From Sinohyriopsis cumingii (lineage: Eukaryota > Mollusca > Bivalvia > Unionida > Unionidae): 64,000 nt of DNA. Below are positions 2,431 to 64,000 of this stretch, in pieces. The notes under the pieces are model-generated. The model saw only the letters and a list, made by a program, of their open reading frames with translations. It ran no database searches and had not been told where the DNA came from. The DNA lies in assembly GCA_028554795.2 (NCBI GenBank), contig CM068842.1:24400590-24464589 (forward strand), read 5' to 3'. The translations under genes were made by a program, and so were the position numbers. Position 1 is the first letter of the stretch; every line of letters begins with the position of its first letter.

Positions 2431-2742
2431 AAATCGAACTACGCGCTATACATGACTCCTCTCTAAAGATGCAAGCAACGAAGTTACAATATTGTCATTT
2501 AAAATGTCATTAACTAAATGATCCTTACTAAAGTCCTTAATATGAAAATAATATACATGATATAGATATACATAAAAGTCAATACTCTCATCTTAAAGAC
2601 AAAATTTTAAAAAATGGTATAATGACTTGCGTGACCATCATTTACCTCTATTGACTTATCTGGAGACGAAACGCATTAAAGCTCTCTTGCAAGAAAAAAT
2701 AGCGGATATCTGGGTAACTCATTACCGTCTGACTCAAGTTTC

Positions 2743-3066
2743 ATGTTTAACCCTAATGCAACCCTAAAGATGTTCATTACGGAGAAGAGTCATCGTTCAG
2801 GAACCTATTGGGAAGCTGTCAATGTTCTCTACGATCACAGTGTGGAATATTCTGATTCTTGTGGAGTATCTCCTGCGGAAGAAGACGTTACAGATTTAAT
2901 GAAAAGAAATGCTGTATCGACTAAATGCAATAATGTGAAATTCTGTGAACCAGATTCCATGGTGTGTGGACAATATTGTGATTATTTTCTTCATCAACGC
3001 ATCTTTGATTTCCCTAAGAACACACTGGTCAACAGTGAAATCATTACTGACTTGAAAAGGCCCTAA
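2743..3066 (+). CDS. Unrecognised 107-codon ORF, probably a gene fragment
   Basis: An open frame of 107 codons with protein-like composition, containing several Cys and acidic residues (for example CGVSPAEEDVTDLM). I do not recognise it. Just upstream, another frame (about 2634-2765) is also open and protein-like (it contains TKRIKALLQEKIADIW) and runs into this one with a frame change, which suggests one decayed gene read in two frames. Its last 40 codons overlap sequence weakly similar to the inverted right flank of the neighbouring element, so it may be part of that mobile unit. No signal peptide or membrane segment is evident. Function unknown. Confidence 0.3.
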   Translation: MFNPNATLKMFITEKSHRSGTYWEAVNVLYDHSVEYSDSCGVSPAEEDVTDLMKRNAVSTKCNNVKFCEPDSMVCGQYCDYFLHQRIFDFPKNTLVNSEIITDLKRP

Positions 3067-3073
3067 TCTGTAG

Positions 3074-3131
3074 TATTTTGGTGTGCCGAACACGAATATA
3101 ACCGTGAAAAATTTGTATTGGCTCTCGTTTT
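3074..3131 (+). repeat. Left inverted repeat of the 562-aa element
   Basis: Contains GTGCCGAACACGAATATAAC and, 14 bases later, ATTGGCTCTCGTTTT. The reverse complement of 5302-5362 reads GTGCTGAACACGAATATGAC, the same 14-base spacing, then ATTGGCTCTAGTTTT. Confidence 0.7.
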
Positions 3132-3256
3132 GAAGATATTCATATACCTCATTTTCTATGTTTCACTGTGTAAATTCCTCCAGTAGGACTGCAGCAACAT
3201 CCGGAATAATGATGTAACATTGCATAATACCATCATGCTCACATCATCCACAGTTG

Positions 3257-3279
3257 ATTGCATCATTTTCTGATGCAAT
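3257..3279. other. Perfect 9-bp stem hairpin upstream of the 562-aa gene
   Basis: ATTGCATCA (3257-3265) and TGATGCAAT (3271-3279) form a perfect stem with a five-base loop, just before the duplicated promoter module. It may be a protein-binding palindrome or chance. Confidence 0.4.
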
Positions 3280-3282
3280 GCA

Positions 3283-3403
3283 ATACTAATGCCATGCGGC
3301 TGCTGAAGTAAGTTGACGTCAGCAGTGTACTATACATGTGTAGGCCTATTATACTAATGCCAGGCGGCTGCTGAAGCTGACGTAAGCAGTGTACTATATA
3401 AAG
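3283..3403 (+). promoter_or_regulatory. Duplicated promoter module with CRE and TATA box
   Basis: A roughly 52-bp module occurs twice, at 3283-3335 and 3351-3402. Each copy reads ATACTAATGCCA(T/G)GCGGCTGCTGAAG, a CRE-like word, then AGCAGTGTACTATA. Copy 1 has a perfect CRE, TGACGTCA (3314-3321); copy 2 has TGACGTAA (3378-3385). Copy 2 ends in CTATATAAAG (3394-3403), a good TATA box about 115 bp before the ATG at 3517. A start of transcription near 3421-3430 is inferred, leaving a roughly 90-nt leader. The arrangement suggests the element carries its own RNA polymerase II promoter. Confidence 0.6.
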
Positions 3404-3516
3404 CCCAATCAGATAGGTTCAGCATTTAAAATATTTTAGACGTTGTGCGAGACAGTTCAAGCTACTGTTACATAAAACTTATTATTTTATCCATTTACGT
3501 ACAATAAAGAACAGTA

Positions 3517-5205
3517 ATGCCTCGAAAGTGTGTTAATACCGCGGACAATTTTTGTTATATTTGTGGGGAAGTGACATTTGCCAACCAGAAGAAAAGTATC
3601 AATTCTCAAGTGAAGAAGGCATATCATCTTTACTTCGGATGCAAGGTTGGTGACCAAGACAAGCCTTGGGCTCCGCATATATGCTGTGCTACATGTACAA
3701 CACAGCTTTCACAGTGGTTGAATTGCAAAAGGTCATCAATGCCGTTTGCAGTCCCAATGGTGTGGAGAGAGCCAAGCAACCACCTAAATGACTGTTACTT
3801 CTGCTTGGTTCCTCCTCTTTCCGGCGGAATAACGAAGCGAAAGAAGTCGAGAATAGTCTACCCAAACATTCCGTCTGCATTGAGACCAGTTCCACATGGT
3901 GAGGGACTTCCTATTCCAGAACCTCCAGCAGAATATTCTCTTGATTCATCTGACGAAGACAAAGGTGAGTCGACCTGTTCTTCTCCTGGTCCATCAGCAT
4001 GCAGTGATCCAGATTTTCACTGTGGTGCATCATCAACCCCACACAGAATAACACAGGAAGAACTAAATGACCTGATTCGTGATTTGGACTTATCAAAGAA
4101 CAAGGCAGAATTGCTAGGATCAAGACTCCAACAATGGAATCTTCTAGAAGAAGATGTCACAATTACTGCATATCGAAAGCGCCACCAGCAATTGGAGCCT
4201 TTCTTCAGAAAGGAAAGTAATCTGATATTCTGTTCCGATATTGAGGGCCTCATGAATGCTTTAAAAATCACTCATGACCCACAAGAATGGAGACTATTTG
4301 TGGACTCTTCGAAACTGAGTCTCAAGGCTGTGCTTTTGCACAATGGAAACATTCTTCCATCTATTCCAGTAGCGTATGCTGTCCACATGAAAGAGACATA
4401 CGATAACTTAAGGCAGCTACTGAATTCCATTGAGTATAACAAGTACAGCTGGCACCTCTGTGGTGATTTGAAGGTAGTTGCCCTTTTAATGGGACTGCAG
4501 CAAGGATATATAAAATACATGTGTTTCTTATGCGAGTGGGATAGCCGAGCAAGGGAAATGCACTACATGAGGAAGGAATGGACTCACAGGCAGAATGTAG
4601 CCATTGGAGAGAAGAATATCCAACACCCAGCTCTGGTTGAGGCTCAGAAAATCTTGCTACCACCCCTTCACATCAAACTAGGTTTGATGAAGAACTTCGT
4701 GAAAGCCATTGACCGGACTTTGCCAGCATTCCGATACCTGCATGAAAAATTCCCTCGACTCAGCGAAGCAAAGATTAAAGAGGGAGTTTTTGTGGGTCCT
4801 CAGATTCGAGAGCTTTTCAAAGATGACCGGTTCAACAACTTGCTGGAAGGTGACGCGAAACAAGCATGGAATGCTTTTCGCCTAGTTTCTACAAACTTCC
4901 TCGGAAATGTTAGGGCAGAAAACTATAAGGAACTAGTAGAAGACATGTTGATGAAGTATAAGAAACTTGGCTGCAATATGTCTCTAAAGATTCACTTCCT
5001 TCATTCCCATTTGGATTTCTTTCCTAGCAACTGTGGTATTGTTAGTGATGAACACGGCGAATGTTTTCATCAAGATATCGCAACAATGGAACAAAGATAC
5101 CAGGGAAAATGGTCCACTACAATGCTGGCTGACTACTGCTGGACACTCCTCAGAGATGCTCCCGAACAGCTGTACAAGAGACAGGCGAAGAAATCTAAGA
5201 TGTAG
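3517..5205 (+). CDS. 562-aa zinc-finger, probable transposase-like protein of unnamed family
   Basis: An intact, intronless ORF. The N-terminus is cysteine-rich, with CxxC pairs at 13-16, 57-60 and 93-96 and further Cys at 5, 42, 56 and 70; the 13-16/57-60 spacing resembles a ZAD-type zinc domain (inference). Residues 140-175 are a Ser/Asp-rich linker. The C-terminal 350 residues hold the conserved-looking blocks LFVDSS (D263), CGDLK (D317), CFLC (336-339) followed by EWDSR, LHIKLGLMKNFVKAI (384-398), and a tail with FHQDI and ERYQGKW-like text (here EQRYQGKW, 525-532). D263, D317 and a later Glu could form an RNase-H-like DDE centre, which is unproven. I recall close relatives as uncharacterised multi-copy proteins in hydra, insects and molluscs. 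They usually have Arg where this copy has C516 in the SDEHGE-C-FHQD stretch. The start is the first ATG after the TATA promoter and leads straight into the cysteine domain. Its function in the host is unknown. Confidence 0.85.
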   Translation: MPRKCVNTADNFCYICGEVTFANQKKSINSQVKKAYHLYFGCKVGDQDKPWAPHICCATCTTQLSQWLNCKRSSMPFAVPMVWREPSNHLNDCYFCLVPPLSGGITKRKKSRIVYPNIPSALRPVPHGEGLPIPEPPAEYSLDSSDEDKGESTCSSPGPSACSDPDFHCGASSTPHRITQEELNDLIRDLDLSKNKAELLGSRLQQWNLLEEDVTITAYRKRHQQLEPFFRKESNLIFCSDIEGLMNALKITHDPQEWRLFVDSSKLSLKAVLLHNGNILPSIPVAYAVHMKETYDNLRQLLNSIEYNKYSWHLCGDLKVVALLMGLQQGYIKYMCFLCEWDSRAREMHYMRKEWTHRQNVAIGEKNIQHPALVEAQKILLPPLHIKLGLMKNFVKAIDRTLPAFRYLHEKFPRLSEAKIKEGVFVGPQIRELFKDDRFNNLLEGDAKQAWNAFRLVSTNFLGNVRAENYKELVEDMLMKYKKLGCNMSLKIHFLHSHLDFFPSNCGIVSDEHGECFHQDIATMEQRYQGKWSTTMLADYCWTLLRDAPEQLYKRQAKKSKM

Positions 5206-5301
5206 TCAATGACTTGATTTTTTATAGGTAGGCTATTACAGTTGACCTTTTACTATTGGAATGCATTTCGTTATGTAAACATTAATTTCTTGCAGATTAC
5301 A

Positions 5302-5362
5302 AAAAAACTAGAGCCAATTTTGCAATTTGACTGTCATATTCGTGTTCAGCACATAAAAATTG
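5302..5362 (-). repeat. Right inverted repeat of the 562-aa element
   Basis: The inverse partner of 3074-3131. It starts about 95 bp after the stop codon, so part of the repeat may be transcribed as the 3' untranslated region. Confidence 0.7.
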
Positions 5363-5965
5363 ATAAGAATTGACTAATTTTTTTTCAGTAACATGACTTT
5401 TGTAAAAATTTGTTGTCCAGTGACATCTACAAGTCGAACGGCACTTTTTAGAGCCACCTATATGTCAAAAAAAGAAGAAATATTAATCGTATTTGCTAAC
5501 ACAATTTGTGTTTGTACGTTTGTGTTTGTGTTTGTAAATGTTCTCGTCTTTTCGCACACAAAAGCAAAATAAAACCTAGAATGTCTTTATGCTTTCTCTT
5601 GTGGATGTATCTATGACAAGGTATAGTAGTATCTACAAACACTTCATACCCTGTATTTGATGGTATGTTTATGTGCATAGTGTGCGTGTATCAATACTCC
5701 AACCCTTTTCATTCGATAGTAATGGTGTGCTTGCATAGTAATCAAAAAATGGGTGCTGGATTGTAATAAAAACGTTGGTGCTGGATAGTATATATGGTAT
5801 GCTGGATTATGATCAAACATCGGGCGACGGATACTATATATAGTGTACTGAATTGTAACTAAAAATTCGGGTGCTTTGTAGTATGGATCGTAATCAAAAA
5901 GTAGTAGATGAATTGTAGGGTACGTGTTGGATTGTAAGTTAAAAAAAATGTATTCAACATTACCG

Positions 5966-42200: not shown

Positions 42201-45200
42201 TTGGGCAGAACTCCTGGTTATGGAAATCAAGTAAGAAAACATGGTTGTGCTACAGCATACATCTACTTCAAGGCTACATACTTTAACCAAAGATCTTGGT
42301 CATTAAGACCTGTTGATTAGTACAGATACCTACATAGAGGACAAATAAACACAGGGGTGGAGTTTAATATGCTATTTTTGGTGCTTTTGTTATTTAAAAA
42401 AAATTTGAAAGAAGAGTTTTTTCATATTCATGTTCTTTATTGAGTTACAAAACATCCTTGCCTCCACTTTTTATACCATGATCAAAGTTCCTGGAACACA
42501 TGTTAAATTTTGTTTCTGAGTCAGAACCTATACAGTCCCGTTGTGCAGTGCTACGATATTCCAAGCTGACAGATGGACAGGTTTTGAAGCGGCTCTTGGA
42601 GGTGTGTGAAGCTGAAAATGTCAGTTACACAGATGATGGTTTGGAGGCCATTGTTTTCACAGCACAAGGAGATATGAGACAGGTAAAGATGCAATCAGTT
42701 TTGATAAATAGAGACTTATTGGCCTATTTTAAAAAAGCTAAATGTTTTTTTTAAAAAAATTTTTAAAACCAGTTCTAACAAACAATTTCAAGCTCTATAT
42801 GTGATCTAGATGGTGGGGAAAAAGTGGTTTCTTATATTGAGGAGACCGGAGGACCTGGAGTAAAGCACTGATCTTGCATAGGTAACAGGTAATCCTCACA
42901 TGTACATTGGATTAAACCTGGATTCAGAGTTGAAGAGCCGGTTAAACACAATACAAAGTGACCAGTCTCCCCTAAAACTTGTGACTAAAAGGGGTCAGTG
43001 ATTTGATGTTAGCTAAATAGACATCAGAATTTTTAATTGATTCTGAATTTGAAAGTGTTTTTTCTTATAAATATTTCATGACCACATTGTCATTGCAATG
43101 TTTTTGTGATTAATAATAATAATAATAATAACTTTATTTAAAGAGGGTAACACTATTAGCTGAAGAGCTAATCTACCATGAGGCCCTCATACAAAGGAAT
43201 TTTAGCAATTTTAAATGTATCTCTGAAGTCATAGGATGTATTGGGTTCGGAAGAAGGAAATAGACTGAGCATTTCTAATGTCAGCTGGAATACTATTCCA
43301 GAGCAAAGTTCCAGAGTATTGGAAACTTTTTGAATATTTCCTTATTTGGTTTGGGAATTTTATACTGTTTGGTAGACATGGATCGCTGTTAGGAGCATTA
43401 CCAGGTAGCCTCTACTGGAATAGTGATTGTAATTATTCAGTAGCACCATTATTGGATATCCTGTACATTAATTTGGCTTTTCTCATCCAGATTCAGTCTT
43501 TAATACGTAATATTTTTAACTTGGCAGCTAAATTTTCTTTGCTGTCTTTCTGAATCAATTTTATTCCAAATGCTCTTTTTTGAAGGTGCGCTAGCTTGCT
43601 ACATTTTTATCATTTGATTTACCCATACTGTATTACAGTAATCTAAATAGGGTTGAATGTGACTGTTATAAAATACTTTCTGTGCCTTTCATTTTTAGAC
43701 AATGTCTTATTCTGCTGAGAAGCCATAAACTTTAACTTTTTTACTGATATGTGGGATATGTTGTTGTTGTTGTAGGGTTTAATGCCATTTTTCAGCACAA
43801 GATAGGCTATACATGGTGGCCAGTATAAATGGAGGAAGAACCCGGGAAAACCCCTGAAAGAACCCCTGACCCATACAAAGCTACTGGCAAGCTTTCTCAC
43901 ATACCCACATCAGCCGAGCCTGAGACTTGAACCCATGCAGATAGAGGTGAGATGGCAGTGATCCGTAATGGTGAGCGCTTTAGGCCACTCGGGGGCCCTG
44001 TGTGATGTATTCAATCCATGATAGATTATTATCAACCAAAACACCAATGAGTCTATCATGACAGACCATTTGCAAATTTTTATCCTTCCATGTCAGACAT
44101 AGTTCATCACTGTGAAGATTTGTTCTTTTCTGCCACGCTGAGATAAGTAATATTTTAGTTTTACCAGTATTTACCACCATGCCATTGCATGTGCACCAGT
44201 TTTCCAGTTTGTTTAGAGCATCCTGTAAAAAAAATTCCAGTTCATGCTTTGTGTTTTGGAAGTCTGACAATGAGACATTTGATCCCATCTGACGGTCAAT
44301 CACAAGTGTAATAAAATTGCATGTTAACAATCAATGGTGATTCAACAGTAACTAACAAAATACATATTTGAAATCTTTTTAGTTGTAAAATGTATAAAGG
44401 TCCTTAACAAACACAAAGGCTACAAACAATGGTCTTCTTGTGTTTGTGCAGTTTTTACATTTATTTAACAACATTGCCACAGGTTTCTGCTGATTTTATT
44501 GCAGCTTTTTGTTTGTCAATCCAAGATAATTGATGCATCATTGTGAAAAATTGCATTATTCTTGTATGCATCTGCTTGTATCCACTGTCTTTGTTTGAGG
44601 CAGTTTACAATGAACAGTAATTGGATTTTTGTGCATTTTCAAATTTCTTCTCAGTATGTAGTAGGATTTCAGTTTTGATAATAAACTTAGTTTATTATTA
44701 CCTTTCTAAATTTTGGCATTTAATGAAAATACTGCTCCATCTTTATACATGGTATTAGATATAAATCAAATCTCTTTTTTCAGGCATTGAACAATTTGCA
44801 GTCAACATACCAAGGATTTGAACATGTAAACAGTGAGAATGTATTCAAGGTATTTATTCCCTTTTGATTGTAGTAGACATAATAAAAAATTTGGAACCTC
44901 AGGGAAAGGCTCTTTTAATGTGTAATAGTCATCCATGGATTCAATTTAGAAATCTATATTGTTTTTATATTAACTCTGTGAGTAATCCCAATACCCTGGG
45001 ATACATTTTTGGAAAGAAAGTTCCTTCCCTAGGTATTTTATGTTTATATGGAACAGTCCTTGCACAGAAAAGGCAAACAACAATCATTCTTATCACTAAA
45101 GTAATATTCGTTGTTATATATTGAATTTTTCAGTTATACTTTCCTTTCATTCCCAAATTTTTCAGTTTAAGGAGTGAAACATGGTATAATTATATATCAT

Positions 45201-51200: not shown

Positions 51201-54200
51201 TTCTGCTCTAAGCCATTCTTTGGATCTGGTCACAAGTAATTCTTTGCTGAATAGGCGATGTTTGAGTCCTGGATCCAAGATGGTGGCCAAGACAAGCTTC
51301 TTGTTGTTGGCAACATCAGCAGAGTGCAGTGCATCCCCTAGGGGTGCAAGACTGAGAGTCAAAAATCTCCTTGGTGTCAAAACTGTGAGTCGGACTGAGT
51401 AAAAAGCAAACTTTGGTATCAAAACTAGGGGTCAAATTACAAATTTGGGGGTCTCTGAAGTGCAAATGAGGGTAAAGGGAAACACTGAGAGTGTGTTCAG
51501 TGATGTCAGCGTATCACGGCGCACTGTCTGAATACGTTGACTCGCTTCATGCTCTAGAGCCAGCAACTTTCAGAGCATTTTCAGCATAGGAAGAATGACA
51601 TATGTTGATGTTTGGCTATCACTTACTTCCTTGGTAATGTCCGCAAATGGGCCTAACGTGTTCACAATATTTTTAATCAAAACCCACTGTTATGCTGTTA
51701 GACTATCCAGGTCATAGAGAGTAGCCTAAGCTTCCAAGACTTTTTATTATTCATATAAAGAAACCAACATATTGTATGCAGAATTCCAGCGTGTCTGGAC
51801 ATCTTGGACGAGTTTCTTATGGGTAACGCCAAATTTTTCCTACTGCTGTTTGAGCTGCAGTGTGTGTGCAAGACAGCTGAAGCTGTAGATTTCAGCCAGA
51901 AACATTGCTTTAACCAAGTTTGCACTTTGTCACGCAGAAGAACATGGATATGAGTTTTGGGAATGTTGTATTCCTTGCATAATTTTTCCAGTTTGCTCGC
52001 CAAATATTCTCCTGTGTGATTCATCAAGAGGCGTTGCTGCAAAAATCACGTTTGCGCCATTGTGCTGCAAGACTCAATAAGGCTACGTTGATGGACAGGT
52101 CTGGCCATGCATCAAGGTCAAACTAAGGTCATATTGGGCAGAAAGTAAATCATGGACCTTGCTTAGTATTGCCTTATGCGTGCAGGTATCAAAGATGTGG
52201 AAAAGTACTTCAGAGTTGGAATTTTATAGCGCGGTTCTGCCTTGGACATCAGATGTAGAATTCATTGTCTTCAACAATGGAAATTGGTTGCACATCTACT
52301 GCTGTGAACTCTGCAATAGCTTTGTGGCAACTAATAGCTCTTGAGTTGTCAAATGCAAATGGTTGCTTCTGGTCCAGCATGGCATCAATAGTCAGAGTAC
52401 GAGGAGTTGCTGAGGTTAACTGCACAGCATCCTTTTCTTTTTTATCTGCCAGAAACAGGCCATGTTTGGCAGTGTGCTTGCAGTGCAAGTGCTAGAGAAG
52501 ATTTGATGTATAGTTTTTAGAATCCTTTCCACCTCTGGAAAGGCATGCTTTGCGAAGTGTGCAATTTGCTTTGGACTCGTCAACTGCATTTACTTTGAAG
52601 TAATTCCAGACCAAACTCTAGTGTTTCGAGTTCAGCGTTATGCATAAGCTTGGTAGTATATTTAAAAGTGTACAGTCACTTGTCAATATTAATAATCCGA
52701 TCAATTTGCACTCTTGAAACAATGTTTTAAATCAAGTAGGTTACTACTAAGTTGTCCACGTGCCTGGATGGATGCACACAGCTCAGCAGGTGGGGTAACA
52801 TTGCTGGTATGCCAATATCTATGCTGCATAATATTTGTTTGTCAGCGTTATGCTGCTTCAACGTCCGACCACTATTCGTTGATTAGCAGCATTGCAGGAC
52901 TGGCTAATGAACAGATTAATTATAGAGAGTCATAGTTTCATATTAGTTGGAAATTTCGCTAGCTATATAATCTGCCTGGCTATCTGTTAATCTGTATGCT
53001 GGAAGTTCAACAGCCACATGAAGCCTGATTGGCTGGTTGGCTGTTGTGATTGGGATGAGTGCATGAATGGTATTGATAATTTGTTGTGTGCAGACAATCA
53101 GCAGTAGTTCACAGTAAGTGTGTTTAAAAGTATTTACTTTTAAGAATATACTCTTTCAATTAACCCCCAAATCAAATGTTTATTCCTTAATTTCCACTAT
53201 TTAATTCTGATTTAAAATTTCGAGCCAACTCTAGATGAATGTTATGATTGAATTTATCTTTTGGAAATTTGTTTACGTTGGCACCTATTATTTCTGCCAA
53301 TACTGATTATACCGATTGTTCTAATAATCGACCTGATTATGAGTATGGCCAATTAATCGGTACAGCTTTATCTCATGGTTTGTTCTTTGAAATGAATTTA
53401 CCGGAGGCAATATTTATAAAACTCATAACGGCACAAAAACCTGAACTCAGCTCAACTGCTTAATAAAGGAATTATTTATTTAAAGTCAGGTCATTAGTAA
53501 GTATTTAAAGCACCATAGACTGTTTTTAGGCATTAACAGGTACATTCTGTGATTAGTGTTCAAGAACTCTTTTTAAAACTTTACAGCAACACTTTGCTGT
53601 TTTCAAAAGATGATTTAGAAAAGATGGTACTTCATTCTAGTCCAAGTTTTATGTTCAATAGACTGATTAGCCCATAACCTGCTAAGCACAGTTACTATGG
53701 CCTTTGTGACCATTGTAAACCCAGACCAGTCTGCATGTAGCTCAGATGGTGAACAGGGTTTACACTGCTTGGCCACTCATCAGTAATTTCTCCAATGCAG
53801 CTGTTTGTAACATATATGGAATGGTCCAGATTCAAAGAAAGAATAGTCCATTATTGAAATAGAGGTTCAGTGTTAATATGATCTCATAAGTATAAGCAAT
53901 TACACACACATATTTAGAGGAAAATTGCGATTAAGTTCTGATATCAGAGATTTATTCCTTTTTTAAATACCTTGAGTTTTACAACGGACACCGGAAACCT
54001 AGCTCTTTTTCCAAGGCTGGGAAAAAGGCTTTCAACTTCATATCATGCAAGGCCAGTAATGACAGTAAAAACAAATCTGATATTAAAAATTTTATTTGCA
54101 GTTCTCAATCACACATTCAAAACACTACTATGTAAAATATGTAAATTATTTTTAACAGTGCTCCAGATAGCATTCAGACTATTCAGGATGGTACAGGTCA

Positions 54201-57200
54201 ACATTGTAAGAAATCATTAATGGTATGGTACAGGTCAACATTGTAAGAAATCATTAATAGTATGGTACAGGTCAACATTGTAAGAAATCATTAATAGTAC
54301 GGTACATGTCAACATTGTAAGAAATCATTAACAGTATGGTACAGGTCAACATTGTAAGAAATCATTAACAGTATGGTACAGGTCAACACTGTAAGAAATC
54401 ATTAATAGTATGGTACAGGTCAACATTGTAAGAAATCATTAATAGTATGGTACAGGTCAACACTAAGAAATCATTAATAGTATGGTACAGGTCAACATTG
54501 TAAGAAATCATTAATAGTACAGTACATGTCAACATTGTAAGAAATCATTAATAGTACGGTACATGTCAACATTGTAAGAAATCATTAATAGTATGGTACA
54601 GGTCAACATTGTAAGAAATCATTAATAGTACGGTACATGTCAACATTGTAAGAAATCATTAATAGTATGGTACAGGTCAACATTGTAAGAAATCATTAAT
54701 AGTATGGTTCAGGTCAACATTGTAAGAAATCATTAATATTATGGTACAGGTCAACATTGTAAGAAATCATTAATAGTATGGTACATGTCAACATTGTAAG
54801 GAATCATTAATAGTATGGTACATGTCAACATTGTAAGAAATCATTAATAATATGGTACAGGTCAACCTTGTAAGAAATCATTAATACTATGGTACAGGTC
54901 AACATTGTAAGAAATCATTAATAGTATGGTACATGTCAGCATTGTAAGGAATCATTAATAGTATAGTACATGTCAACATTGTAAGAAATCATTAATAGTA
55001 CGGTACATGTCAACATTGTAAGAAATCATTAATAGTACGGTACAGGTCAAGATTGTAAGAAATCATTAATAGTACGGTACAGGTCAACATTGTAAGAAAT
55101 CATTAATAGTATGGTACAGGTCAACACTGTAAAAAATCATTAATAGTATGGTACAGGTCAGCCTTGTAAGAAATCATTAATAGTATGGTACAGGTCAACA
55201 TTGTAAGAAATCATTAATAGTATGGTACAGGTCAACACACAACTGAAAAGTTTAAAGTATAAGTTGTAACTGTGAATATGTGATCAGACGATGTTCAAAA
55301 TACTAGTCTAAAATTTGTATTTTATTTAGCAGCTGTATCAGTAAACTCATGTCAATCCTTTATTTGACCCTTACCTGCTGTAAATGAGGACGATGACTTC
55401 TGCCACCAGTGTAGACCTGGATCGGTTTGCAACTCAGTCAATAAATTCTCCGAAATGCCACTATGAGCCAATAACAGACTGATCCATTTTCAAAGAAAGA
55501 ACTTATTGTTAAAATACAGTAGGATAAGAGATAAGGGTTAATATTTGGAAACGCTCAATGGAGTTTTTCCAAACTAACACTATCTTAAACATTCTTTTAA
55601 TTTTGCTTTTAGTTAAACTCTGAATAAAATGTTTATTTCATGTTGATAGAGTGAATATCCTAACATATCTACACAGAAATGTATCGACTATGAGTTCAAA
55701 CAGTGAGATAAAATGAGCATGCTAATATGCTTAATAGAACCAAGTATACATTGATTTTTTTAAAAATCCCCCAACATTTACTTTTTTTTTAGAAACTTGA
55801 TTGGACAACCACTTAAAAATATACTTGTTGAGCAAAAATCAATATCTTCAGTTTCACTTACCTTTTCATCACCAAGAACTTTACGATGATGAAAGATTTC
55901 AAGATGAAAGATTTGGAAAGAAAACAATATATAGAAACATATATACTTTTTAGAGAGAGAAAGAGAGAGAGAGAGATGATTTATTTACTGAAGACCAGTT
56001 GAAACATTTTTACATTCAACCCATTTCCATGGTGACAAGTCGAGATTTTTAATAAAGTATCTCAACAAATGAGGTTTTTAATAAAGTAACTCAACAGACA
56101 AATTTGGGCATAGTAACACCTAGGGGCATGAGCCAGTTAATTTTATATCTCTCCGATTTTATGCCCTGGTCAGTATGAATATTTGGGACAGAAACAGCAA
56201 GATTTCATTTATATCCACATGAAGTATTTTCATTCTGTACTAATTAACAGAAATGTTAAATATGTACAAGTCAAGGCTTTTAATAAAGTAACTAAACAAC
56301 AAAAAATTTGGGAGTCGGTAGACAGTACCAATCAACAGATAAAATTGGCACACAGTCGTAAATATTAATAAACCCATAAGTGAAAAAGCCATGTAATGCA
56401 ACCATTTGGATCACAGTGCCAATTTTCCCTAGTTGATACGGAGATAGTCGAGTAGTTACGATTGGTATGACCGAATCGCGTACATTCAATGAAGAGTCAG
56501 TGGTACGCATAGTTGCTTACATTTTAATTATCAGTCATACATGCACTATAAAATACTACAAGGGAGGATACTTCTTTGCCTTCTCACGCTACCTTTTGAA
56601 GAATCATCGCTGATATTTTAAGCTAAACTGTGCATAGTGTAATACATTTGGTACCAATGTTTAGCTCAGGCATTCAACTTCATATACCTACTAAAACTTT
56701 TACTTAGTATTTATAAATTTACGGAATGCCAGACCATTTTTCTATGCTATCGCTCAACATGACCATGATTGCACACATTTAATATGCTAGTGCAATGCAA
56801 CAAATTGAATACTGTCCCCATTATAGTCAACTGAAAATCAGTTTATCCCTAGGTTCAGTGCCTCATTTTCGGTCAACCAGTGAGAAGACAGCATTCCATT
56901 CTGTATGTTGCCCTTGCATATTAAGTGGGCGCAATCATGGCCATGTCGAGTTATAGCATGGGGAAATGGCCTGGCATTCAAAAAATGAATAATAGTATGT
57001 CATAGTTTTAGTATGCATACAAAGTCAAATGCCTGAACTAAACATCGGTACTAAATTTGTTACACTATGCTCAGTTTAGCTTAAAAGGTCACGTGAGAAA
57101 GCGCATAATACGGTTTTTCGGAAGCTCGTGCTTGTCATAAAAAAGTTCTAACCAATCACATGGAAGCTAAGAGAATGGGACTTTTTCTAAGTTTGCGGAG

Positions 57201-60685: not shown

Positions 60686-63600
60686 TATTGTGTATAACAG
60701 TCTCACTCTAGTTTAGGATTTCATTCCCAGTTCTTGCATGTTTGCAAGGGAAAAACCCACATGACAGTATAGCTCTGCATTGTGATAGTGCAGTTATCAG
60801 GGTCCATAAATGCTTGCCATATTGTGCTGAACTGCATTAGAAAGATCCAGAGATAAAGAACTTCTTGTGTGTGTATGTGAAAGGAAGGATGTGGCAGTAA
60901 AAATGTTAAAAAACATGTAAAAAAAATAAATGTCACATAGTGCCTTCAAACCAGTCAGTAATCTTGTACGAAAATAACCAATTGTTACTGAAACTGATTG
61001 AATATAGACTCCTTTTACATCAGGAATCCTGATCATTCAGAAGACAATGGCAGTTTGCCACATTAAGTTTTGGCAATTCTATACTCGAATAAAACAGGTT
61101 TATAAATCTTGAAGTGAATGAATATTGGCAAGAGGACTTTCTCTTTGAATTTTTTTAATGTAGTTCAAGCCATGACTGCATTACATCCATATAATGAAGG
61201 GCAGTATGTTGAAGGAGAACTGTATTTATCTCCAGGCAAATCAATTTCACTGACAAAAGACCATGATCTTAAATTCAGTGGGAGTGCTTTATATTAGTTG
61301 TAAGAATGTTTTACTTATTCCACTCTGTAAAATAATTGAAATTTATACGATTCAAAAACATTCAGTTACAGTTGTGACCAAATATATTTATATGTGGTGT
61401 AATAAATTTAGGAAAGTAACATGTTGGAATTTGAGGAAAACTGTCTTGAATTCATGGATTAAGGGATGTTATTAATGGTGGTTTCACTGTTGCAAATGAG
61501 TTTTACTAGACAGGTGCTTCAGTAGAGCTGGTTAAATATTGGAAACTTAAACTACCACTAGAGTCCTCAAATCAGCAAGCACCGATAGCTATCCCCATTC
61601 TTGTACACTTGGGAAGTTTTTGTCAAAATTGGCTGAACGTGTTATTTTAATAGGAGCAATATATTACCTGCAATTTATATATTTTTTCTAAGAGTCTTAT
61701 GCCATCAGTTTGTTCAATAATATCCTTTTGCAAAAGTTGGCATGTATGGTCAAAGAAGGCATAATTGGACACCCTCACCACCAGTTTAGTGTTCACCAGG
61801 TGTGAGCACTTTGACTGATGCTCCTTTCTTTGCTTTGTGTGCAGACAATATATGAGATTTAGCTGAGAATCATCACCATTACAAAAGTAGGAAGATTGAA
61901 GTATCTTCTTTGTCTTGACAAATTGTACCAACATACATACACCACTCCTTTCCTTCAGGAAAGATTATTGGCACTCCTGGGAACAAAAAATTAAACTAAT
62001 TGATATCAGCAGAAATTGTGATCCAGAGAGGGAACAAGTAACCTACAATGCAAAGTGAGTTCTAACCTTTCAGCGCAAGGAAGGGGTTGTCTCTTTTTCG
62101 ACCAGCTTAACTTGGCATTCTTGATCATCTGTTGTTTCTAGTTTGGGTACCAGGTGTTGGGATAGAAACTTTTCTCATTATCTGCTTGACTGGTCCTAGA
62201 CCAGTGACTAGACTGCAATCACTGGATGCTGTGTTGAGACACCATTAACCAGTCACCAGTCACAAAGTAAAACTACAAATACCAGATTTTAGATACTGAT
62301 CATTGAGCAAAGCTTAAGATACTAAGCACCAGTCACAGATCAAAGGGACAGAAACCAGGACCAGGCACCAAGCTCAAGTTACTTAGTAGGTCATATACCA
62401 GGCATTAGTTACTGGGGAATATGATTTTCCCCCTGACACAATGGATGAGTTTTCCTTATCCCCTTTGGCTGGCAGATGGGGTGACCATGTGACCATTTCT
62501 TCAAGGAGAGTGGACCAGATAGTCTAGACTTGCCCTAACAGCAGAAAAAGAATGATGAAAGGTCCGTTTTAGGATAAGACACAAGTTGAATAGGCCCTTC
62601 CCTCCAGTTTGTGTTCTGTCTCCACCCTTTGTCTGTGAAGTGATGAAAGATGAGGTTATTTGGACTTTTTACAAGACCGCGAAATTAACTACCTTTTTTT
62701 TTTCTGGATCTTTGTCAGAAACCTTGTGGGTTATTGGGCATGAAAATTCTTTGAAGTTTAGAGACTCTTGAGTTCAAAAGAAAGCTGATCTGATGTTGCT
62801 TTGCTTTCGAAGACAGTAAAGGATATTGCTCAGAGATAAGCAGAAGGCCAAGAGGCAGCCAGACAACAGAGGCATTAGTTAGTCCCTTAGGCTGCCTAGC
62901 AGCCACTGGCGTCAGCGAGGAGTACAAGGTTCACTCATCCACTTAGCCACTTAAACCTCCTGGTCTGGATCGTCTCGGATAGGTATTTCCTTGCAGGCCT
63001 TGCATTGCATAACTGTTAAGACACTGAAGGCTATGGAGCTTAAGCCACTTTGGTCAATATAGTCATACATGCCACTTTGGTCAGTATAGTCATACATGCC
63101 ACTTTGGTCAGTATAGTCGTACATGCCACTTTGGTCAATACAGTCATACATGCCACTTTGGTCAATTTAGTCGTACATGCCACTTTGGTCAATATAGTCG
63201 TACATGCCACTTTGGTCAGTATAGTCGTACATGCCACTTTGGTCAATACAGTCATACATGCCACTTTGGTCAGTATAGTCGTACATGCCACTTTGGTCAA
63301 TACAGTCATACATGCCACTTTGGTCAGTATAGTCATACATGCCACTTTGGTCAATACAGTCATACATGCCACTTTGGTCAGTATAATCATACATGCCACT
63401 TTGGTCAATATAGTCATACATCCCACTTTGGTCAGTATAATCATACATGCCACTTTGGTCAATATAGTCATACATGCCACTTTGGTCAATACAGTCATAC
63501 ATGCCACTTTGGTCAGTATAATCATACATGCCACTTTGGTCAATATAGTCATACATGCCACTTTGGTCAGTATAGTCGTACATGCCACTTTGGTCAATAC

Positions 63601-64000
63601 AGTCATACATGCCACTTTGGTCAGTATAGTCGTACATACCACTTTGGTCAATACAGTCATACATGCCACTTTGGTCAGTATAATCATACATGCCACTTTG
63701 GTCAATATAGTCATACATCCCACTTTGGTCAGTATAATCATACATGCCACTTTGGTCAATACAGTCATACATGCCACTTTGGTCAGTATAATCATACATG
63801 CCACTTTGGTCAATACAGTCATACATGCCACTTTGGTCAGTATAGTCGTACATGCCACTTTGGTCAATACAGTCATACATGCCACTTTGGTCAGTATAGT
63901 TGTACATGCCACTTTGGTCAATATAGTCGTACATGCCAGTTTGGTCAATATAGTCGTACATGCCAGTTTGGTCAGTATAGTCGTACATGCCACATTGGTC
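60686..64000 (+). other. RFC2 intron 8, start only
   Basis: The terminal RFC2 exon (expected to begin with E-I-G-x-T/S-H-like residues) was not found up to 64000. Between 60686 and 63043 I see only unrecognised open frames (61647-61934, -) and a CCAGTCAC-rich stretch (about 62190-62340). Confidence 0.7.
63044..64000. repeat. Satellite-like array, 27-bp unit, over 35 copies, runs off the window
   Basis: Unit GCCACTTTGGTCAATATAGT then CGTACAT, with few changes. Two unit types (CAATACAGTCAT and CAGTATAGTCGT) often alternate, giving a 54-bp higher-order period. The length is a multiple of three, so several frames stay open on the - strand (for example repeated MYDYTDQSG, 273 and 317 codons). This is a by-product of the repeat and not evidence of a gene. 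Confidence 0.97.

Follow-up and report, generated by a model that had tools for sequence, protein, structure and literature searches.

What is the unbroken gene that stands between matching inverted repeats near the beginning of a 64,000-nucleotide stretch of the genome of the bivalve Sinohyriopsis cumingii, and does it still move? The stretch, hereafter the window (assembly GCA_028554795.2, contig CM068842.1, positions 24,400,590 to 24,464,589 of the forward strand), had been read in a first-pass annotation as carrying here a member of an unnamed multi-copy family, perhaps an active and poorly described transposon for which no standard superfamily fitted. The results of the current study show a complete DNA transposon of 2,400 bp at window positions 3023-5422 on the plus strand, which starts CACTGGTCAAC and finishes GTTGTCCAGTG. 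It is very probably an autonomous cut-and-paste element that belongs to Chapaev3, a group within the CMC (CACTA-Mirage-Chapaev) transposons, and the genome contains some 5,000 near-identical copies of it. It would thus be a known kind of element in an extraordinary state, with few deletion derivatives among its thousands of copies; it stands out by its scale, with thousands of copies, mostly intact and apparently from a recent burst, and with dead relatives of greater age in the same genome.

The copy number was obtained by searching the whole genome (2.9 Gb in 1,138 contigs) for short patterns with up to three mismatches, with reversed patterns as controls. The left end (a 38-mer) was found 5,105 times, the right end (also a 38-mer) 5,087 times and a segment from the core of the open reading frame (ORF) 5,083 times, against no match in each control, and the genome therefore carries about 5,000 near-identical copies, in agreement with the multi-copy family that had been proposed. 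As the core is as frequent as the ends, internally deleted derivatives with similar ends can, in net terms, account for no more than a small share, and any whose ends had diverged further would escape such a count. A burst of this size has bred few miniature inverted-repeat transposable elements (MITEs) with similar ends. In a protein search, the 77 best of 9,583 first-look candidates were scored, and all 77 were full-length, 99-100% identical and free of stops, the set (window copy included) being biased as it consists of the best matches.

The borders of the element were determined from 30 best copies (L001-L030, L001 being the window copy). All but one span exactly from 3023 to exactly 5422 at 99.6-100% identity, the exception (L029) lacking the first 210 bp. 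Duplications of 3 bp border 28 of the 29 full-length copies, including the window copy, where ACA stands at 3020-3022 and again at 5423-5425; by chance, such a match is found between loci in 163 of 812 comparisons (20%). A second, positional sample, drawn from contig C1 by taking its first 30 exact left ends and therefore favouring intact left ends on one contig, gave a 3-bp duplication at 17 of the 20 copies that were followed to their far side. The exact termini and target duplications that a genome search was expected to reveal are thus present, and the transposon nature of the locus, suspected beforehand, is established by them. Aligned on their duplications, 28 copies yield the target consensus A-TWA-T, the hyphens marking the edges of the duplicated bases (A in 21, T in 22, A/T in 27, A in 23 and T in 23), TWA being in this family a preference and not a rule for each copy.

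The ends themselves are inverted repeats. The terminal repeats are CACTGGTCAAC on the left (3023-3033, plus strand) and CACTGGACAAC, read on the minus strand, on the right (5412-5422), so that the element is bounded by CACTGG..CCAGTG, that is, by the CAC..GTG of Chapaev3. Alignment of the two arms pairs 3023-3131 with 5304-5422 and includes, about 60 bp inside each end, a subterminal block, GCCGAACACGAATATAACCGT..ATTGGCTCTCGTTTT at 3085-3131 (plus strand), whose inverted copy lies at 5304-5350 (minus strand) and which is a possible binding site of the transposase. The score of this alignment is only moderately unusual, since among 478 pairs drawn at random from the window one did at least as well; the block GCYGAACACGAATATRACNGT is confined to the two arms and occurred in none of 100 shuffles, although it had been picked post hoc. 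It is the borders shared by the genomic copies that decide in favour of the flanking inverted repeats claimed earlier.

Within these borders lies one gene, a single exon of 562 codons at 3517-5205 on the plus strand, which is open throughout, without stop or intron, as first reported. It is the only long ORF in the element, which accordingly contains no RAG2-like partner. Conservation of the encoded protein was followed in alignment rows from dead, older copies, the rows being pieces of alignment in which one locus may count more than once. In order along the protein, all on the plus strand, we find D263 (4303-4305; D in 9 of 10 rows), D317 (4465-4467), the C(2)C motif C336-x2-C339 (4522-4533; of 12 rows, 10 retain the first cysteine and 11 the second), the LH motif L384-H385 (4666-4671), the H(4)H motif H493-x4-H498 (4993-5010; each histidine kept in 12 of 14 rows) and E512 (5050-5052; E in 10 of 13 rows), the last being matched visually to the S-E block found in HzTransib and RAG1. 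D263, D317 and E512 are the probable first, second and third residues of a DDE catalytic triad; the two aspartates had already been singled out as likely catalytic residues, and the CxxC insert noticed with them fits an insert between D317 and E512. The N-terminus contains a Cys/His-rich region (C13-C16, H37, C42, C57-C60 and C93-C96; 3553-3804, plus strand), a possible DNA-binding domain that may bind zinc, whose residues are kept in the older copies from 6 of 13 rows (C60) to 8 of 8 (C13).

These features allow a comparison with described transposons. Zhang et al. 2014 (PMC4079192) give the C(2)C, LH and H(4)H motifs as characteristic of Chapaev transposases and state that all Chapaev3 elements examined have a TWA duplication between A and T, which could refer to each copy or to the consensus of each family; most Chapaev3 elements are said to have a single exon, and Garfield_BM is listed with 2,289 bp and 556 amino acids. 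The element of S. cumingii resembles these Chapaev3 transposons (Merrow, Garfield, Conan) in its CAC..GTG ends, its 3-bp duplication with an ATWAT consensus, its three motifs and probable DDE triad, its single exon and its size (about 2.3-2.4 kb and about 560 amino acids), and it is because ends, duplication, target and motifs match the published hallmarks that we assign it to Chapaev3. Those hallmarks that could be checked are present at consensus level, so the earlier statement that no standard superfamily fits is not supported. It differs from them in that TWA is inexact in some copies and in that about 5,000 near-identical, mostly intact copies have left few deletion derivatives, whereas Garfield and Conan gave rise to MITEs according to the same source. 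For the broader clade that unites EnSpm, Mirage, Chapaev and Transib (CMCT), Kojima 2025 (PMC12730594) reports C(2)C and H(3-4)H motifs placed between the second D and the E, mostly CA..TG ends and duplications of 2-5 bp, and the placement of the motifs, the ends and the duplication length of our element all agree with this. A Chapa zinc-finger domain is described at the N-terminus of Chapaev3 transposases; the N-terminus found here is rich in Cys and His and might be such a domain.

Chapaev3 is also presented in the literature as related to Transib and RAG1. The protein shares with Transib, RAG1 and RAG1L the order D, D, C(2)C, LH, H(4)H, E, with an S-x-E block near the end, and C336 follows D317 by 19 positions, as in the mouse RAG1 chain, the distance being 16 in HzTransib. 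A visual alignment sets its S-D-E-H-G-E against the S-E-E-A-S-E of HzTransib; the second D and the E matched in this way are the catalytic ones in RAG1. In contrast to Transib and RAG1, the duplication here is 3 bp and not 5 bp, significant sequence similarity is absent and no RAG2-like partner is present. Transib as the family of this element is ruled out by the 3-bp duplication, 5 bp being typical of Transib. Mirage and classic Chapaev were also considered and rejected, as the protein matched neither DUF1258 (PF06869) nor DUF1280 (PF06918), the published Pfam models for these groups, nor any other Pfam family.

Several observations weigh against the Chapaev3 assignment. The protein has no relative in Pfam, NCBIfam or PHROGs and no credible one by sequence in the Protein Data Bank (PDB); no Pfam family was found at E up to 10 (the HMMER filters dropping most hits above about 0.1), and the PDB chains of RAG1 and HzTransib gave no credible match even with family profiles. 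The alignment with RAG1 is marginal, its score being reached in 12 to 282 of 1,000 shuffles depending on the settings, and the printed global alignment leaves the later motifs out of register. Among the rows of dead, older copies, no more than 5 of 11 have D at position 317 (3 have N), and H385 is retained in 6 of 11. Exact TWA is found in only 17 of the 28 duplications of the best copies and in 10 of the 17 of the positional sample, the window's own being ACA, and no right end was found in the older relative L061, discussed below. The structure models are poor, with a mean predicted local distance difference test (pLDDT) score of 35.9 and 52.7, and fold searches were uninformative; the second model puts the end of a short strand beside D263 and the starts of helices beside D317 and at 511, before E512, an arrangement that would suit an RNase-H core and proves nothing at that confidence. 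The assignment is drawn from motifs, ends and target.

Among the other explanations, an animal EnSpm/CACTA element, which would belong to the same CMC clade, is improbable. Kojima 2025 (PMC12730594) describes CAC..GTG termini and 3-bp duplications as consistent with it and attributes C(2)C and H(3-4)H to the whole clade, but the element lacks a match to Transposase_21 (PF02992), the Pfam model given for EnSpm/CACTA, as to any Pfam family; an ATWAT target such as the one preferred here is reported for Chapaev3 by Zhang et al. (PMC4079192), and the short single ORF and the 2.4-kb size also fit Chapaev3. Slightly less probable again is a separate lineage within the CMC/Transib clade that lies outside all named groups, for which the missing Pfam model, the lack of a credible RAG1 or HzTransib match and the laxity of TWA would speak; the agreement with the checkable Chapaev3 hallmarks at consensus level argues against it. 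That the locus is a domesticated or merely duplicated host gene, immobile, as an intact ORF behind a promoter-like sequence could suggest, is scarcely credible, since about 5,000 copies share the same ends with 3-bp duplications particular to each locus, and since the element is inserted into another repeat.

This repeat is the left flank of the window copy, for which 1,864 first-look candidates were found and 40 scored. The paralogues L075 and L076 continue past the junction without the element for only 4 bases, 3 of them identical, and so lend weak support to an empty site. The element sits in an open frame ending ..MVCGQYCDYFLHQRIFDFPKN (window 2680-3063, plus strand), which is part of this other abundant repeat; the other 39 of the 40 scored copies are 73-81% identical. 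A stretch CGQYC..FLHQR in this frame is reminiscent of an adenain/Ulp-type cysteine protease; Pfam gave no match.

The Chapaev3 copies are young and largely undamaged. Each of the 30 copies in the positional sample matches the element for about 1.5 kb at 99.2-99.8% identity, 29 of them in a single alignment (L045 with 8 gap positions) and L033 in two, as it has an internal deletion. They differ from their majority by 84 substitutions in 46,038 bases (0.18%), with 0 to 6 differences per copy (mean 2.8, variance 2.0), a spread that points to one short recent burst rather than long steady activity, and most copies probably derive from such a burst; 3 of the 29 full-length best copies are identical to the majority across 2.4 kb. 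If the rate implied for the octopus by PMC13282606 (JC, Jukes-Cantor, 0.09 per 25 million years) applied, 0.18% would correspond to about half a million years, although that rate may not be the host's. The ATG is present and no stop occurs in the first 348 codons in 23 of the 30 sampled copies. When the first 20 were followed to the far side, the right end was reached in 19 and the complete 562-codon ORF was open in 12, so that, judging from this one contig, perhaps about 60% of the copies carry an intact gene. Similarly, in a listing that took in mismatch-free ends only, the distance from left to right end is exactly 2,400 bp for 29 of 40 left ends and 2,392-2,401 bp for 34, four of the remainder having no listed partner and two a distant one.

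The suggestion of an active, poorly described family therefore stands in part: the copies are recent and mostly intact, the group is a known one, and activity is only possible. With its intact gene and thousands of nearly identical copies, the element may be a Chapaev3 member that still functions. The thousands of intact autonomous copies and the absence of a build-up of deletion derivatives speak for jumping today, which we nevertheless regard as less likely than not.

Older relatives of the element exist in the same genome. A search with a degenerate pattern gave 25 places, at 17 of which the sequence is a different and older one, and the 13 of these that were fetched (L061-L073) are all decayed by stops, frameshifts or deletions, their stretches of at least 40 residues being about 35-72% identical to the transposase (P0001). 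The left end of one of them, L061, reads CACTGGTC.ACAG, and in this copy ATTGGCTCT..TTTT.AAGAT is preserved just as far inside that end as it is here, while much of what lies between is less alike. As this part of the subterminal block was kept while much of the sequence between it and the end diverged, the block may be a binding site of the transposase. These decayed relatives, one with its CACTGGTC left end, suggest an earlier invasion of the same genome.

Building on what was observed (the ends of the element, their duplications, the preferred target, the number of copies, the open frames and the places of the motifs), we propose a series of steps for transposition, in which DNA binding, fold, catalysis and the order of cutting are what we infer, as is the single recent burst. 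With its Cys/His-rich N-terminus, the 562-residue transposase would bind the CACTGG repeats at the termini as well as the subterminal GAACACGAATAT/ATTGGCTCT blocks, and the bound transposase would pair the ends of the element. An RNase-H-fold site formed by D263, D317 and E512 would then cut the DNA and join it to the target, insertion at A-TWA-T with a 3-bp stagger being followed by repair that would leave the duplication.

Expression of the transposase may start from TATATAAAG (3395-3403, plus strand), a possible core promoter by its match to the consensus only, which lies about 115 bp before the ATG and is the TATA-type promoter named in the first-pass annotation; an imperfect tandem duplication (3283-3398, plus strand; pairs 3283-3308/3351-3376 and 3310-3334/3374-3398) stands ahead of it. 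No AATAAA or ATTAAA occurs from the stop codon to the right end of the element, those inside the element being at 3503 and 4774; beyond it, an AATAAA is found at 5568. In the remainder of the window, a list of stop-to-stop frames contains no other non-repetitive frame above 148 codons, which agrees with the view that the other transposon genes of the window are dead. The only host-gene exon noticed is an exon-like frame at 42482-42751 (plus strand), which we take to resemble replication factor C subunit 2. Long tandem arrays lie at 63044-64000 and 54184-55238, with self-match offsets that are multiples of about 27 and about 37 bp, and the former gives open frames on both strands that are unlikely to be genes.

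Chapaev3 elements are, according to published descriptions, kin to the transposon lineage that gave rise to the antibody-gene recombinase. Thousands of copies, many with an intact gene, offer direct material for testing how such transposases cut and join DNA, and the family could perhaps provide a new gene-delivery tool. Large bursts of DNA transposons are usually dominated by short deletion derivatives, and their near absence here raises the question of how young this invasion is and whether anything restrains it. If the element is indeed still jumping, it would offer, for the study of CMC transposition, an active relative of the RAG1/Transib lineage that occurs in nature, and the genome of S. 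cumingii would have been caught during, or right after, an unchecked invasion.

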